Under the pieces are notes generated by a model. It was not told where the DNA came from. It saw only the letters and a list, made by a program, of their open reading frames with translations, and searched no databases. A program made the position numbers and the translations under genes. 36,795 nucleotides of DNA from Planctomycetota bacterium. GTDB taxonomy: Bacteria; Planctomycetota; Phycisphaerae; Phycisphaerales; SM1A02. The stretch lies in contig JAQCEQ010000026.1 in the NCBI GenBank assembly GCA_027618565.1, positions 1 to 36,795 of the forward strand, read 5' to 3'. Position 1 is the stretch's first letter, and each line of letters begins with the position of its first letter. Shown here one piece after another: positions 12,621 through 28,773 of the stretch.

Positions 12621-14717
12621 ATGACCATGACCGCCACCCTATCGCTCCTCGAGACCGTCAACGCCGGCACCCCAGCCGGGACCCCCGCCATCGACTCGCT
12701 GGCCATCAACACGATCCGGACGCTGGCGATGGATGCGGTGCAGAAGGCGGAGTCGGGGCACCCGGGCGCGCCGATGGGCCTGGCACCGGTGGCCTACGAA
12801 CTCTTCCAAAGCGAGATTCGATTCGATCCCAGCACTCCCACGTGGGCGAACCGCGATCGCTTTGTGCTCAGCAACGGCCACGCATCGATGCTCCTCTACG
12901 CCACGCTCCATCTCTGCGGCGTGCCCCAACTGGATCGGCACGGCAAACCGACCGGCGAGGAAGCCGTGTCGCTGGACCAGATCAAGCAGTTTCGCCAGCT
13001 CAACAGCCGCACGCCAGGTCATCCGGAGTTTGGCATCACCACAGGCGTGGAGACGACGACTGGCCCACTCGGCCAGGGCATCGCCACCAGCGTCGGCATG
13101 GCGATCGCCGAACGATGGATGGCTGCCCGATACAACAAGCCTGGCTTTGAACTCTTCTCGCATCGAGTGTGGGCGATCTGCGGCGATGGCTGCCTGATGG
13201 AGGGAGTCTCCAACGAAGCAGCGTCGATGGCTGGACACCTTGGCCTGGGCAACCTGTGCTGGATCTACGACAGCAACAAGATCACGATCGAAGGCTCCAC
13301 GGACCTTGCGTTCACGGAGTGCATGCGATCCCGGTTCGTCGGCTACGGCTGGAATGTGCTGGAGGTGGCCGATGCCAATGACTTGCCGGCATTGCGCGCC
13401 GCGTTTGGTGGCGCCAAGAAGGTTACCGACACGCCCACGCTCATCATCGTGCACAGCCACATCGGCTGGGGGTCGCCGCACAAGCAAGACTCCCACTCCG
13501 CACACGGTGAGGCACTGGGCGTGGACGAGATCAAGGAGACCAAGCGCGCCTACGGTTGGCCGGAGGACAAGAGTTTCTTCGTCCCCGATGGCGTGCGCGA
13601 GCGCGTCGCGGAACGGCTGGGCGCACGAGGCAAGGCCGCGCGCGCCGAATGGGACGCGATGTTCGCGAAGTACCGCGCGCAGTTCCCCGACCTTGCCGCC
13701 CAGATCGACTGCATGGAATCCCGCACCCTCCCCAAGGGTTGGGATGCGGCGCTCTGTGCGTTCCCGGCGGACGCGAAGGGGATGGCCACCCGCGCGTCGG
13801 GCGGCAAGGTCCTCAACCAGATCGCGAAGGGAGTTCCCTTCTTGGTTGGCGGTGCGGCGGACCTGGCTCCCAGCACCAAGACACTGATCGACGGCGAGTC
13901 CGGGTTCCAGTCGGCTACGCCTGCAGGGCGCAACATGCACTTCGGCATCCGCGAGTTTGGCATGGGTGCCGCCTGCAACGGCATGTGCCTCTCGGGTCTC
14001 CGCTCGTACGGCGCCAGCTTCTTTTGCTTCACGGATTACGCCCGCCCAGCCATCCGGCTCTCTGCGCTCATGGAGATTCCCGTCCTCTGGATCTTCACGC
14101 ACGACTCCATCAACTTGGGCGAAGATGGACCCACGCACCAGCCGGTGGAGCATCTGGCGTCACTTCGTGCGATCCCCAACCTCCACACCTATCGCCCCGG
14201 CGACGCCAACGAAGTGGTGGAGTGCTTCCGCCAGGCGATGACCCACACGCACATGCCCGCGATGATGGTGCTCTCGCGCGGCAATGTGCCGACACTTGAT
14301 CGGTCGACGGTGGGCGCGGCGAGCGGCTGCGCACGCGGCGCCTATGTGCTCAAGGAGGCCAGTGCCGCTCCCAAGGCGATCCTCATCGGAACCGGCACGG
14401 AACTCCCGCTCTGCGTGAGCGCCGCGGCGACGCTGGAAGCCGCTGGAATCCCGACTCGCGTGGTCAGCATGCCATGCACCACACTTTTTTCCGAGCAAGA
14501 TGCCGCATACCGCGAGTCGGTGCTTCCGCGCGCCGTGACCGCACGAGTGGCGGTGGAAGCGGCCTCACCGCTCGGGTGGGATCGATGGATCGGCGACCGC
14601 GGCGCGTTCATCGGCATGACCACCTTTGGCGCCAGCGCCCCGGCGGGCGATCTCTACAAGCACTTCGGCATCACGCCGGAGCGGATTGTGGAAGCAGCGA
14701 AGCGCCTGGTTGGGTAG
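12621..14717 (+). CDS. tkt: Transketolase
   Basis: 698 residues. The N terminus ALAINTIRTLAMD-like segment (here SLAINTIRTLAMDAVQKAES) and GHPGAPMGLAP are classical. The thiamine diphosphate motif starts at GDGCLMEGVSNEA (about residue 188) and continues to the Asn in YDSNKITIEG. The pyrimidine-domain Glu is in GIREFGMG, and the substrate-contact THDSINLGEDGPTHQPVEHL is complete. The enzyme moves two-carbon ketol units in the pentose phosphate pathway. The open frame continues upstream across pdxH on the other strand; ATG 12621 (or 12627) is the first start that leaves only conserved sequence. No strong Shine-Dalgarno. TATGCT at 12562-12567 could be a -10 box, giving a leader of about 47 bases. 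Confidence 0.95.
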   Translation: MTMTATLSLLETVNAGTPAGTPAIDSLAINTIRTLAMDAVQKAESGHPGAPMGLAPVAYELFQSEIRFDPSTPTWANRDRFVLSNGHASMLLYATLHLCGVPQLDRHGKPTGEEAVSLDQIKQFRQLNSRTPGHPEFGITTGVETTTGPLGQGIATSVGMAIAERWMAARYNKPGFELFSHRVWAICGDGCLMEGVSNEAASMAGHLGLGNLCWIYDSNKITIEGSTDLAFTECMRSRFVGYGWNVLEVADANDLPALRAAFGGAKKVTDTPTLIIVHSHIGWGSPHKQDSHSAHGEALGVDEIKETKRAYGWPEDKSFFVPDGVRERVAERLGARGKAARAEWDAMFAKYRAQFPDLAAQIDCMESRTLPKGWDAALCAFPADAKGMATRASGGKVLNQIAKGVPFLVGGAADLAPSTKTLIDGESGFQSATPAGRNMHFGIREFGMGAACNGMCLSGLRSYGASFFCFTDYARPAIRLSALMEIPVLWIFTHDSINLGEDGPTHQPVEHLASLRAIPNLHTYRPGDANEVVECFRQAMTHTHMPAMMVLSRGNVPTLDRSTVGAASGCARGAYVLKEASAAPKAILIGTGTELPLCVSAAATLEAAGIPTRVVSMPCTTLFSEQDAAYRESVLPRAVTARVAVEAASPLGWDRWIGDRGAFIGMTTFGASAPAGDLYKHFGITPERIVEAAKRLVG

Positions 14718-14730
14718 TTGGGTAGTTGGG
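14710..14730 (+). repeat. 8-bp direct repeat across the transketolase stop codon
   Basis: TTGGGTAG at 14710-14717 and 14718-14725, then TTGGG. The gene's TAG stop (14715-14717) is the end of the first copy. Confidence 0.8.
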
Positions 14731-14773
14731 AGCAGGCGTCCGCCGCGGCGCCGGAGTCGGGGGGCGGCTTCAG

Positions 14774-14965
14774 TCACTCGTCCGAATCAAGGTCCGTCGA
14801 CTCCTGAGAGTCCATCTCGCCCTGAATCTGCGCCGACTCCAGGTCGCGGTCTGACTGAGTGCCAAAGATCGATCCCGAATCCTGGCCACTGTCGCAGGCG
14901 CAGAGGCACGCCACGACGACGATTGCGATGAGTCCCAGTCCAATGGGGGGGCGCGCGCGACTCAT
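14774..14965 (-). CDS. Small predicted lipoprotein
   Basis: 63 residues. A hydrophobic signal (IGLGLIAIVVVACLCAC) ends in a lipobox-like LCAC, giving a mature acidic peptide rich in Asp, Ser, Gln and Glu of about 40 residues. The ATG overlaps the stop of the glycine-zipper gene by four bases (ATGA at 14962-14965), which implies translational coupling and argues that it is a real gene. No known domain is recognised. The likely location is lipid-anchored on an envelope membrane. Confidence 0.6.
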   Translation of the reverse strand: MSRARPPIGLGLIAIVVVACLCACDSGQDSGSIFGTQSDRDLESAQIQGEMDSQESTDLDSDE

Positions 14966-15267
14966 GGGGTCTGCCCCTGCTGGAGGTTGGGTTCGTAGAT
15001 CCCCTGCTGCTCCTGCTGGAGCCGTTGCTTCTCCAGTTCATTCTTGTCCTGCTGCGTGCCGACCAGCGCACCGCCCAGCGCACCGATGCCGGCTCCGATA
15101 GCCGCGCCTTCCCAACCGCCAGCAATCGCCCCGACGCCAGCCCCGACACCAGTGCCAACCAGCGCGTCGGTTTCGGTGTTGTTCTGGCAACCGATGGAGA
15201 TCGCCGTGACGAGTGACGCTGCGCCGAGAGTGACGCGACGAATGGTGTGCGTGGGTCGATTCTGCAT
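14962..15267 (-). CDS. Glycine-zipper lipoprotein
   Basis: 101 residues. The signal sequence ends in a lipobox-like SIGC (about residues 24-27). Then come a glycine-zipper region, GTGVGAGVGAIAGGWEGAA continuing to GALGGALVG (about residues 38-68), and a Gln/Glu-rich tail. Glycine-zipper segments of this type sit in outer-membrane-associated lipoproteins such as the SlyB/YMGG group. It is the first gene of a two-gene unit with the small lipoprotein. Its ATG is 23 bases from the start of the divergent penicillin acylase gene; a TAGCAT box lies six bases upstream and there is no Shine-Dalgarno. Confidence 0.78.
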   Translation of the reverse strand: MQNRPTHTIRRVTLGAASLVTAISIGCQNNTETDALVGTGVGAGVGAIAGGWEGAAIGAGIGALGGALVGTQQDKNELEKQRLQQEQQGIYEPNLQQGQTP

Positions 15268-15271
15268 GCAG
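15262..15271. repeat. 10-bp palindrome CTGCATGCAG at the divergent start region
   Basis: A perfect palindrome covering the first codon of the glycine-zipper lipoprotein gene and lying just upstream of the acylase -10 box. It could be an operator or chance. Confidence 0.35.
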
Positions 15272-15273
15272 CA

Positions 15274-15283
15274 ATGCTACGCT
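15274..15283. promoter_or_regulatory. Overlapping divergent -10 boxes (TAGCAT minus, TACGCT plus)
   Basis: On the minus strand TAGCAT (15279 to 15274) is six bases before ATG 15267. On the plus strand TACGCT (15278-15283) is seven bases before ATG 15291. The two boxes share 15278-15279. Neither gene has a Shine-Dalgarno, so both transcripts are predicted to start at or next to the start codon. Confidence 0.5.
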
Positions 15284-15290
15284 TTGTGAC

Positions 15291-17690
15291 ATGCCACCTC
15301 AGACCTTGGCCGCGCACATTGTGCTGGGAATCGCTTCGATTGGCTGGGGACTCGCCGGGGCCCAGGGTCCGGCCGCGCCTGCGGAGCAGCAACCACTGGC
15401 GGGGCTCACCGCGCCCGTCGAGGTCACGATGGACAACCGAGAGGTACCCACCATCGAGGCCCGTTCGGCACTGGATGCCTTCCGCGTCCAGGGCTTCGTC
15501 CATGCGCAGGCTCGATTTGCCCAGATGGATGCGATGCGCCGATTGTCGGCCGGCGAGACGGCTGAACTCCTGGGGAAGGCTTCCGTCAACCGGGATATGG
15601 CCCTTCGGGAATTCCGGGGTCGCGAGGTGGCACGGGCCTGCATCGAGGCCCTCTCTCCAGAAGAGCGCGCCATGTTGGCCGCGTATGTCGCGGGAGTCAA
15701 CGACGGGATCGCCGCGCTCCCCATGCCGCCGATGGAGCACACCCTGCTTGGGCTCAAGCCCGCAGCGTGGAAGCCTGAGGACTGCGCGCTGGTGTACCTC
15801 TCGATGTTTCACTCGCTCGCGCGTACCGGCCGCCACGACGACACGTTTCAGCGGGTGTTGCAGCAGCTCCCGCCACAGGTCTCGGCGTTCCTGGCCTCCC
15901 CCCTCTCGCGATTCGATTGCCCAATCATTGCCGATGGTGCGGACTGCGTGTTGCCACCGATCCCAGACGGAAGCGTGATCGACCTCCGCGCCACACCGCA
16001 GGCGCACGCCCACTCGCAGGGACTTGACTCCACGGCGCTCATGGACCTGAACTGGCTCGAGTGGCAGATGCGCGGCGCGCTCGCCGGGAGCAATGCATGG
16101 GCCGTCGCGGGGAGCAAGACGGGCGACGGGCAGGCGATCCTGGCGAACGACCCGCACCTGCAAATCACCGCCCCGATCCTCTGGTATCGATGTCGCCTGC
16201 AGTGGCACGGCGTGGACTGGACAGGGCTCTCGATTCCTGGCGTCCCTGGCATCGTGATCGGCACCAACGGGATGGTCGCCGTCGGATTCACCAACACCGC
16301 CGGGGACTTTGAGGATCTGGTGATCGTCGATGTCGATCCCAACGACTCGACGCGATACCTGACGCCGACTGGAAGCGAACCCTTCGGCGAAGTCATCGAG
16401 ACGATTCATGTCCGCGGCGGGAAGGACGTGGAACACCGCATGCGAACGACGAAGTGGGGTGTCGTGTCGGGGACCACGAGGTACGATGACGACGTGGAGC
16501 GCCCTGTCGTGTCACTCTGGGTGGGCGCGCGCGCCGAGGCGATCAACTTTGACATCCTCAAGATGTCGGGGGCGAAGACGGTGGACGAGGCAGCCACGGT
16601 CCTTGCTTCGTGGCACGGGCCCAGCCAGAACGGCCTGATCGCGGATTCGTCAGGTCGCATCGGGTGGGTCATGACCGGGTGGATCCCCGAGCGAAACGGC
16701 CACGATCCTCGGCTGCCATGGCGACCGACAGTGGACGGCGAGCCGTGGGCGACATCCATCCCCGAGGAGCGCCGACCGATGGTGATCGATCCTCCCGAGG
16801 GATTCATCGTGAGCGCCAACCATCGCAGCATCCCCATCGACCGCTGCGCGGACATCGGCTACTACTGGGCCAACCCCGAGCGTGCGCACCGGATCCGCGA
16901 GCGGCTGATCGAGTCAACCGCGGCACCGTCGGCGGCAGCCCCGGTCACCGAGCTTGACATGCTGGACATTCAGCTCGACACGCAGGTCTCTGGGCTGGAG
17001 CCATACCGCGCGATGGTGCTGGGGGCGATTCCGACGGCGGAATCGGACGAGGCACTCGCGCGCGCGCGCGCCCTCGCCGCTGCATGGAACGGGCGAGCCG
17101 ATGCGGACCAGCCGGCCGTGGCGTTCCTGGGCGCGATGCAGCGAGAGGTGGCCAGGTCGATGGAGCAGGCCGTCGCTCGGTGGTGCCGCACACGCACCGG
17201 CCAGGACCTCAAGTTCCGAACGGTGGTGGACGAACCTTGGCTTCGAGTCGTCGAAGCACGTGCGCCCAACTGGCTCCCACCTGAGTTTGCCACGTGGGAC
17301 GAGTGCCTCCAGGACTGCGCGCGGCGTGCGCTCAAGAACGAGCCGGGCGATGCTTCGTGGGGTGAACGCAATGCCGCTCAGTTCATGAGCCCCGTCGCCG
17401 AGGCCGTGCCGGAACCGCTGCGACCCGCGCTCACGCTGGACACCGGTCCGCAAGCCGGACACTTTCGCGCGGTTCGAGTGCAGACGCCTCGCGCGGCGGC
17501 CAGCGCGCGCCTCATCGTGAGCCCAGGCCACGAGGCCGACGGGATCCTGGAGACGCCCGGTGGCCAGTCGGGTGACCCTCGCTCCCCACACTACCGATCG
17601 TTCCACCAGGAGTGGCGCGACGGCGCGCCAACGCCGTTGCTGCCGGGGGCACCTGTGAAGTCGATCGAGTTCGTCCCCCCCGGGAAGTAG
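15291..17690 (+). CDS. Penicillin acylase family protein (Ntn hydrolase)
   Basis: 799 residues, the usual size for a penicillin/acyl-homoserine-lactone acylase precursor. An N-terminal secretion signal ends near AGAQG. The alpha part includes GFVHAQARFAQMDAMRRLSAGE. The autocatalytic processing site is Gly266-Ser267 in AGSNAWAVAGSKTGDG; Ser267 would become the beta-chain N-terminal nucleophile. NDPHLQITAP, GTNGMVAVGFTN and the late YRSFHQEW segment match the beta chain. Expected location is the periplasm. Family members cleave amides of penicillins, acyl-homoserine lactones or lipopeptides; the substrate here cannot be read from sequence. It is divergent from the glycine-zipper lipoprotein, and its stop lies in the left arm of a strong inverted repeat. 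Confidence 0.9.
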   Translation: MPPQTLAAHIVLGIASIGWGLAGAQGPAAPAEQQPLAGLTAPVEVTMDNREVPTIEARSALDAFRVQGFVHAQARFAQMDAMRRLSAGETAELLGKASVNRDMALREFRGREVARACIEALSPEERAMLAAYVAGVNDGIAALPMPPMEHTLLGLKPAAWKPEDCALVYLSMFHSLARTGRHDDTFQRVLQQLPPQVSAFLASPLSRFDCPIIADGADCVLPPIPDGSVIDLRATPQAHAHSQGLDSTALMDLNWLEWQMRGALAGSNAWAVAGSKTGDGQAILANDPHLQITAPILWYRCRLQWHGVDWTGLSIPGVPGIVIGTNGMVAVGFTNTAGDFEDLVIVDVDPNDSTRYLTPTGSEPFGEVIETIHVRGGKDVEHRMRTTKWGVVSGTTRYDDDVERPVVSLWVGARAEAINFDILKMSGAKTVDEAATVLASWHGPSQNGLIADSSGRIGWVMTGWIPERNGHDPRLPWRPTVDGEPWATSIPEERRPMVIDPPEGFIVSANHRSIPIDRCADIGYYWANPERAHRIRERLIESTAAPSAAAPVTELDMLDIQLDTQVSGLEPYRAMVLGAIPTAESDEALARARALAAAWNGRADADQPAVAFLGAMQREVARSMEQAVARWCRTRTGQDLKFRTVVDEPWLRVVEARAPNWLPPEFATWDECLQDCARRALKNEPGDASWGERNAAQFMSPVAEAVPEPLRPALTLDTGPQAGHFRAVRVQTPRAAASARLIVSPGHEADGILETPGGQSGDPRSPHYRSFHQEWRDGAPTPLLPGAPVKSIEFVPPGK

Positions 17691-24545: not shown

Positions 24546-26057
24546 TCAGTGTGCCTGCGGTGATTCCCACCCCTTGGCGCGCTCGACGGCCCGGCCCCAG
24601 CGTGCGCGCTGGGCGGCACGCCACGCCCGGTCTCGCGCGGGCTGGAACACGCGGTCGATGCCGCGGTGCGCGGCGAGTTGGTCCATCGATCCCCACACTC
24701 CCGCCGAGATCCCCGCCATCAGCGCCGCGCCCAGCGCGGTGGACTCAAGCATGCGAGGGCGATCCACGTTCACGCCGCTCAGGTCGGCCTGGATCTGCAT
24801 CAGCAGGTCGCTGGCGGCCGCGCCGCCGTCCACGCGAATGGAGCTGAGCGGCGCACCGCCGTCCTCTCCAAACGCATCGAACAGTTCCGCGCATTGGAAC
24901 GCGATGCCTTCCAGCGCCGCGCGTGCGATGTGCGCCTTCGTGGCACCGCGAGTGAGTCCACCGATCAACCCGCGTGCGTGCGCATCCCAGTGTGGTGCCC
25001 CAAGTCCCGCGAAGGCGGGGACCAGCGTGACACCGGCGCTGTCCGGCACCGAACCCGCCAGCTCATTCACCTCCGGGCTGGTCGAAATGATTCCTAGCCC
25101 ATCTCGCAGCCACTGGATCGTGGCGCCGCCCATGAAGACGCTTCCCTCCAGGGCGTAGGTCGGTCGCTCACCCTCGCGCTGCCACGCCACGGTCGTGAGA
25201 AGCCCGTTCTTGGAGTGCCGCAGCTCGTGCCCCGTGTTGGAGAGGAGGAAGCAGCCCGTTCCATAGGTGCACTTCGCCTGCCCTGGCAGCACGCACTGCT
25301 GTCCGAAGAGCGCCGCCTGCTGGTCGCCCAGGATTCCAGAGATCGGGACTTGAGCGCCAAGCACCGAGGCGTCGGTGTGCGCCGCGATGCCACCACTGGG
25401 GACGATCCTTGGCAAGATTGCCTTGGGAATCCGAAAGAGCGCAAGGAGGGAATCGTCCCACGCCAGCGTGTGCAGATCCATCAGCATGGTGCGACTGGCA
25501 TTGGAGACATCCGTGACATGAGCAGCCCCCTTGGTCAGCTGCCACACCATCCACGAATCCACGGTGCCCGCGCAGAGTTCACCTCGCTCGGCCCGGGCGC
25601 GGAGAGGCGCCCCACCCTCCGAGAGCATCCACTCGATCTTGCTCGCCGAGAAGTACGGGTCGAGGACAAGGCCCGTCGCCCGATGGACGGCTTCCGCACG
25701 ACCCGGCTCGGCACGCAGCGCGGCCATTCGAGGTGCCGTGCGTCGATCCTGCCACACGATCGCGCGCCCTGTCGGCAGGCCGGTCTCGCGCTCCCACAGC
25801 ATGACCGTCTCGCGTTGGTTGGTGATGCCGATGGCCGAAAGCGCGCCAGCATCGACGCCCGCACTCTTCAACGCTCCATTGATCGCCCGTTGCTGCGACT
25901 CCCAGAGTTCCTGCGGATCATGCTCCACCCAACCGGGCTCCGGGAAGTGTTGCGGGAACTCCACTTGACCCACACCAAGCGTGCGCACGCTCTCGTCAAA
26001 GATGACCGCCCGCGAGGAGGTGGTCCCTTGGTCCAGGGCCATGACGAGTTTCGACAC
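24546..26057 (-). CDS. glpK: Glycerol kinase
   Basis: 503 residues, the normal length. N-terminal [16 protein letters not shown], then [55 protein letters not shown] and the C-terminal [18 protein letters not shown]. It phosphorylates glycerol to glycerol 3-phosphate, the substrate of GlpD encoded directly downstream. The start is GTG 26057: no Shine-Dalgarno is seen, but TAGATT lies exactly six bases upstream. No glpF facilitator or glpR regulator is in the window. A perfect 28-bp palindrome sits just upstream, across the expected -35 region. Confidence 0.96.
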
Positions 26058-26063
26058 GGCTGG

Positions 26064-26069
26064 AATCTA
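26064..26069 (-). promoter_or_regulatory. -10 box TAGATT, predicted leaderless start of glpK
   Basis: TAGATT on the minus strand, six bases before GTG 26057. No convincing -35; the expected position overlaps the palindrome at 26081-26108. Confidence 0.5.
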
Positions 26070-26080
26070 GGCTGCAAGGG

Positions 26081-28739: not shown

Positions 28740-28767
28740 TTGCCACGTTCGATGTGCGCCCTACGCT
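28740..28767 (+). promoter_or_regulatory. Promoter of the secreted metalloprotease gene
   Basis: TTGCCA (28740-28745), a 16-base spacer and TACGCT (28762-28767), then six bases to ATG 28774. A leaderless transcript is predicted. The -35 is identical to that of tRNA-Gly. Confidence 0.55.
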
Positions 28768-28773
28768 ATCACC

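Follow-up and report, generated by a model that had tools for sequence, protein, structure and literature searches.

The 23-bp spacer between two divergent genes in a planctomycete genome probably holds one compact bidirectional promoter, located at positions 15274 to 15283 of the 36,795-nucleotide stretch of DNA analysed here (hereafter the window), from which both predicted messages would be leaderless; this reading was derived from the sequence. The spacer (15268 to 15290) runs from the ATG at 15267 on the minus strand to the ATG at 15291 on the plus strand and contains two opposed -10 boxes. TAGCAT lies on the minus strand (15274 to 15279), with its first T 12 nt before the ATG of a lipoprotein gene, and TACGCT lies on the plus strand (15278 to 15283), with its first T 13 nt before the ATG of an acylase gene. 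The bases T15278 and A15279 belong to both hexamers, which corresponds to the reciprocal overlap of opposite-strand -10 elements that characterizes bidirectional promoters. The original prediction of two divergent start codons, a 23-base gap and overlapping boxes sharing two bases was thus confirmed. Together, the boxes form the core ANNNTANNNT (actual letters ATGCTACGCT); since TA is identical to its reverse complement, four fixed bases (A...TA...T) suffice for two boxes. A pattern search found ANNNTANNNT twice in the window. The other copy occupies positions 26064 to 26073; a GTG start was called at 26057 on the minus strand, and the minus box of this copy precedes it by 12 nt.

The minus-strand gene (14962 to 15267) encodes a glycine-zipper protein of 101 amino acids (PF13441, E 3.5e-10; PF13488, E 8.6e-8), which is a putative lipoprotein according to its N-terminal sequence. 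Its stop is overlapped, in a 4-base ATGA, by a second small lipoprotein-like open reading frame of 63 amino acids (14774 to 14965, minus strand), and the two are likely located on one transcript. The plus-strand gene (15291 to 17690) encodes a penicillin amidase family protein of 799 amino acids (PF01804, E 8.8e-143). Among named genomes, from which records of the window's own genome may be missing, the acylase matched one distant relative with 31% identity. Both labels under which the genes had been introduced, glycine-zipper and penicillin acylase (amidase), score above the Pfam cut-off. Genes near the pair carry PSCyt1, PSCyt2, PSD1 and DUF1501 domains according to Pfam, names that point to a planctomycete.

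Bidirectional promoters in which one symmetrical -10 element is shared have reportedly been described by Warman, Grainger and colleagues, with a founding paper in 2021. In the available text of one article, they are defined by start sites that are 7 to 25 bp apart (PMC10268837). The accessible part of another gives 18 bp as the commonest spacing of the starts, with 10 and 23 bp also being common, and 7 bp as the optimal distance between the -10 element and the start (PMC12825309). When this optimum is counted from the box ends, the predicted transcription start of the lipoprotein gene falls on position 15267 (minus strand), the first base of its ATG, and that of the acylase gene on 15290 to 15291 (plus strand), at the ATG or one base before it; the divergent starts at 15267 and 15290 would be 23 bp apart. 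The overlap of the boxes follows from this geometry, because two leaderless promoters, with boxes 12 to 16 nt from each start, must overlap when the starts are 23 bp apart, in this case by two bases (12 + 13 - 23 = 2). In the proposed mechanism, the TA shared by the opposed hexamers would allow the housekeeping RNA polymerase to load either way without a -35 element. The polymerase would melt the core around this TA in either orientation, RNA synthesis would begin at, or within one base of, the start codon on the chosen side, and the ribosome would then start on a leaderless message in each direction. The minus message would encode the glycine-zipper lipoprotein together with the small second lipoprotein, and the plus message the penicillin-amidase-family protein. 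We infer the activity of both boxes, the start sites, the steric exclusion and any interference between the two directions.

As far as the known bidirectional promoters are described in the available texts, the spacer resembles them in that the opposed -10 hexamers share bases and the predicted starts lie within the range of 7 to 25 bp. However, the starts in the window are predicted on the start codons, so that both messages would lack a leader, and just 23 bp lie between the two genes. The spacer further differs in that it has no -35 signal, that the host is neither E. coli nor Salmonella, and that its starts are predicted from sequence alone. Also related to the spacer are leaderless bacterial genes, for which the available part of one study gives the consensus TANNNT around 12 bp upstream of the start codon (PMC3160421). 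Motif and position are identical at the window boxes; unlike these genes, the spacer has two such boxes fused back to back. For Planctomycetes, leaderless or S1-dependent starts were suggested from one species, according to the accessible text of PMC5397173. Planctomycetes are not mentioned in the main text of PMC3160421 or PMC12340547, as far as it was accessible, and the words "bidirectional" and "divergent" are absent from the accessible main text of the latter. Among the matches listed in the open-access literature, no report was found either of leaderless bidirectional promoters or of the mapping of leaderless starts in Planctomycetes. Each kind by itself, the bidirectional -10 promoter and the leaderless TANNNT gene, has been described before; here, the two appear to be fused.

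The leaderless-type signal was assessed in a sample of 742,919 bases (0.74 Mb), a third of the window's own genome with the window included. A simple codon-bias caller found 567 genes in this sample, 486 of which had a usable ATG start; these starts come from a crude custom caller rather than a standard program. TANNNT with its first T at -12 to -16 was present in 108 of the 486 ATG-start genes, compared to a background of 7.8 per five columns between -45 and -21, i.e., around 1.6 genes per column. The single columns contained 41 genes at -12, 15 at -13, 15 at -14, 27 at -15 and 10 at -16, including the window's own two, and no gene had the motif at -11 or -10. Smaller samples of four relatives gave signals of 6 versus a background of 1.8 (G002), 10 versus 2.8 (G010), 7 versus 0.8 (G018) and 7 versus 0.6 (G014). 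The signal is of the kind known from leaderless genes of other phyla, as described in the available part of PMC3160421. The window boxes are found in enriched columns, at -12 on the minus and -13 on the plus strand, and agree with the TANNNT about 12 bp upstream by which leaderless genes are recognized. Alignment of the 108 boxes on the hexamer showed that the fifth base is preferentially A or C and that a C-rich run precedes the start. Both window hexamers are typical, as TAGCAT and TACGCT each occur 4 times among the 108 boxes, the window's own copies included. The signal has two peaks, at -12 and at -15, and the last three bases before the start are C-rich in the -15 gene set; this second peak may represent another start-site spacing with a 3-nt leader.

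A scan with a generic sigma-70 consensus found no promoter between positions 14000 and 16500, and for spacers of 15 to 19 bp, the -35 match of either box is at most 3 of 6, which does not resemble a classical sigma-70 -35 element. In the 108 aligned leaderless-type promoters, neither a -35 nor an extended -10 element was detected, as all columns between -40 and -1 upstream of the box contained less than 0.1 bit. The suggestion that each -35 region falls inside the coding sequence of the other gene is therefore geometrically true, but the position is irrelevant because leaderless-type promoters in this genome show no -35 information. The Shine-Dalgarno motifs GGAG, GAGG, AGGA, GGA, GAG and AGG are absent from the 20 nt upstream of either ATG, as is expected of leaderless genes at both starts. 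The register of the boxes at -12 and -13, in enriched columns, and the lack of a -35 signal suggest that both transcripts are probably leaderless. The palindrome that had been said to adjoin the spacer, CTGCATGCAG, is indeed perfect and is found at positions 15262 to 15271, where it spans the minus start codon; however, it is unremarkable, because the window contains 54 perfect palindromes of 10 bp, this one included, with around 36 expected in a random sequence of equal base composition. A function of CTGCATGCAG as an operator is thus unsupported, since such palindromes are ordinary in the window.

An association between the shared box and an opposite start codon was observed among 127 leaderless-type genes, but is suggestive only. 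CAT or CAC was found at the appropriate distance opposite the box in 6 of 13 genes that carry the shared-box A, compared to 18 of 114 genes without it (Fisher p 0.017), whereby the window contributes two of the six; upon its removal, 4 of 11 genes with the A remain (p 0.10). For CAT alone, the counts are 2/13 versus 6/114 (p 0.19), and the two positive cases with the A both come from the window. Control triplets showed no significant difference between genes with and without the A (TAC, 1/13 versus 1/114; ACT, 0/13 versus 6/114; TCA, 1/13 versus 3/114). When five genomes were combined, with the window included, CAT or CAC was present in 8/17 versus 25/161 genes (p 0.004) and CAT in 3/17 versus 10/161 (p 0.11). 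An A at the shared-box position is not enriched overall and is present in 12 of the 108 leaderless-type boxes.

Recurrence of the layout was addressed with the pattern CAT-N6-10-ANNNTANNNT-N6-10-ATG and the reversed pattern as a control. The pattern matched 6 times in the window's own genome (G000), 4 times in G001 and 6 times in G002, the other two genomes of the genus, compared to 1, 1 and 0 matches of the control. The six matches in G000 represent five sites, since C4:132778/132781 was matched twice; this site is spurious, as its right-hand frame has only 7 codons. Two of the four G001 sites (C7:8669 and C23:15529) were likewise rejected because the second gene is missing. Across 151 genomes of the family, raw pattern counts, in which gene pairs were left unchecked, exceeded the control in 135 genomes, equalled it in 7 and were lower in 9. 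The raw totals are 1903 versus 886 for all 151 genomes and 1073 versus 318 for the 131 genomes with fewer than 10 control matches. Besides the window, five pairs were accepted in its own genome, which according to Pfam encode a GcvT-like protein and an M42 peptidase (L061), an M19 dipeptidase and a DUF2752 protein (C6), an ABC protein and a DUF418 protein (C44), a KDO-transferase and a hydantoinase (C55), and, with a GTG start, a DciA-like protein next to an ABC protein (C4:18529). For the last pair, Pfam was run on the G002 proteins, and the G002 relative matches DciA. The C6 and C4:18529 pairs are absent from the list of close pairs produced by the custom gene caller.

The promoter layout appears to be partly conserved, though the lipoprotein/acylase pair is not. 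The core of the DciA-like/ABC pair, ATCGTATCCT, is kept in all three genomes of the genus, and that of the C44 pair, AGGCTAGCCT, in G000 and G001. In G001, the boxes of the KDO-transferase/hydantoinase pair are separate and share no bases, and the partner in the C6 pair is located around 89 bp away. The M42 peptidase loci were selected by protein, with 81 genomes searched and 54 matching, and all of the best 30 loci were read; the G000 pair that prompted this set had itself been selected for its core. A GcvT-like gene is found upstream on the opposite strand in 30 of these 30 loci. A TA-sharing core is present at -16 to -19 of the M42 start in 9 of them, which belong to five genera (g1, g2, g17, g53 and g54), and in these nine, a CAT or CAC located 6 to 9 nt beyond the core opens a frame of 389 to 436 codons. 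The letters of the core vary by genus (AGTCTATAGT, ATGATAGGTT, ATCATAGACT, ATGATAGGGT), whereas the register is constant. The other 21 of the best 30 loci have no TA-sharing core, including G002, where none lies within 140 bp of the M42 start. If the promoter is confirmed, these naturally occurring loci, 9 of which have shared boxes and 21 of which do not, could be used to probe effects of sharing on expression or noise.

The original prediction had proposed to check whether the 23-base spacing and both boxes are conserved in related genomes. Among 40 relatives searched, seven have matches to both proteins, and the lipoprotein and acylase genes are adjacent in none of these; they are found on different contigs or, in G010, around 1.6 Mb apart, so that the two genes are not a conserved divergent pair in these relatives. 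In G002, the acylase gene comes directly after a transketolase gene, to which it is joined by a GTGA overlap (L093), and no glycine-zipper gene was found in this genome. The gene order pyridoxamine-oxidase-like, transketolase, acylase, DUF1501 and PSCyt is common to the window and G002. In the window, transketolase and acylase are separated by two small lipoprotein-like frames on the minus strand (14718 to 15267), which are absent from the G002 locus. This block was either gained in the lineage of the window or lost in G002; outgroups do not decide between the two. The acylase genes of G018 and G014, which lie away from transketolase (around 10 kb in G018), have leaderless-type boxes of their own, while most other acylase loci examined have none. 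The box scan of glycine-zipper relatives, in which loci on the minus strand were left unturned, is unreliable, as is that of the minus-strand acylase loci, and nothing was drawn from either.

Other explanations of the spacer were considered. It is unlikely that only one box works, with the other TANNNT being present by chance and its gene being read from a promoter inside the neighbour. This idea benefits from the fact that TANNNT fixes just three bases, so that around 4% of the matches at -12 and 10% at -13 could be due to chance. However, both boxes lie in enriched columns, both hexamers are typical, and neither start is preceded by a Shine-Dalgarno-like motif. Even less probable is a scenario in which neither box matters and the acylase gene is expressed by readthrough from the upstream transketolase gene, with the lipoproteins using another promoter. 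Such readthrough would fit the joined transketolase and acylase genes of G002, but in the window these two genes are separated by two frames on the minus strand, the acylase box is a typical one, and the acylases of G018 and G014 have boxes without being located beside transketolase.

A regulated switch, in which the overlapping boxes, perhaps together with a repressor on the palindrome, render expression of the two genes mutually exclusive, is hardly to be expected. It had been proposed that RNA polymerase can be bound in just one direction at any moment and that expression should hence be mutually exclusive or balanced. The first part is supported as a steric argument, which is also made in the available part of PMC12825309: opposed overlapping boxes cannot hold two polymerases together. 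The same text reports that in E. coli, one direction could be repressed once the other is substantially activated. The second part is unsupported, as five bidirectional promoters of E. coli were examined there and their basal transcription was too low for competition. Furthermore, the palindrome is an ordinary one, and none of the five window proteins scanned with Pfam belongs to a regulator family. As the layout recurs at other gene pairs in relatives, the spacer is probably not an on/off switch but a compact leaderless version of a two-way promoter of known kind. By analogy, the lipoprotein and acylase genes are probably co-expressed at a low level, and interference would require strong activation of one side.

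There is perhaps an even chance that this planctomycete family regularly packs divergent genes via minimal two-way leaderless promoters. Such promoters would lack a -35 element and fix only four of ten bases, and their TA-sharing register would be retained between genera, with the remaining letters changing. New pairs such as lipoprotein/acylase could then acquire the layout upon gain or loss of a gene block, because one core serves both sides. The fused bidirectional and leaderless core may be nearly the smallest promoter that is able to serve two genes. If true, it would provide a simple promoter rule (TANNNT at -12, no -35) for a group without start-site mapping in the literature searched, and this rule would help to correct start-codon calls.

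A related arrangement was seen for the 18-bp class of bidirectional promoters, TANNNTA. It was counted 5, 7 and 2 times in G000, G001 and G002, compared to one control match in each, and many genomes of the family are at or below the control; nothing is claimed for this class beyond orthologous sets. The conserved sets in g16 and g53 are biased, because they were selected for matching the pattern. The window contains a further divergent pair whose genes are 34 bp apart (28740 to 28773), with TACGCT at -12 of the plus-strand gene as part of TACGCTA, which is the register of the 18-bp class. In g53, the divergent pairs MutL/metallophosphatase (L141 to L144) and citrate-synthase/rhomboid (L149 to L152), each assigned by Pfam at one locus, have 20 to 24 bp between their starts and similar TANNNTA cores.
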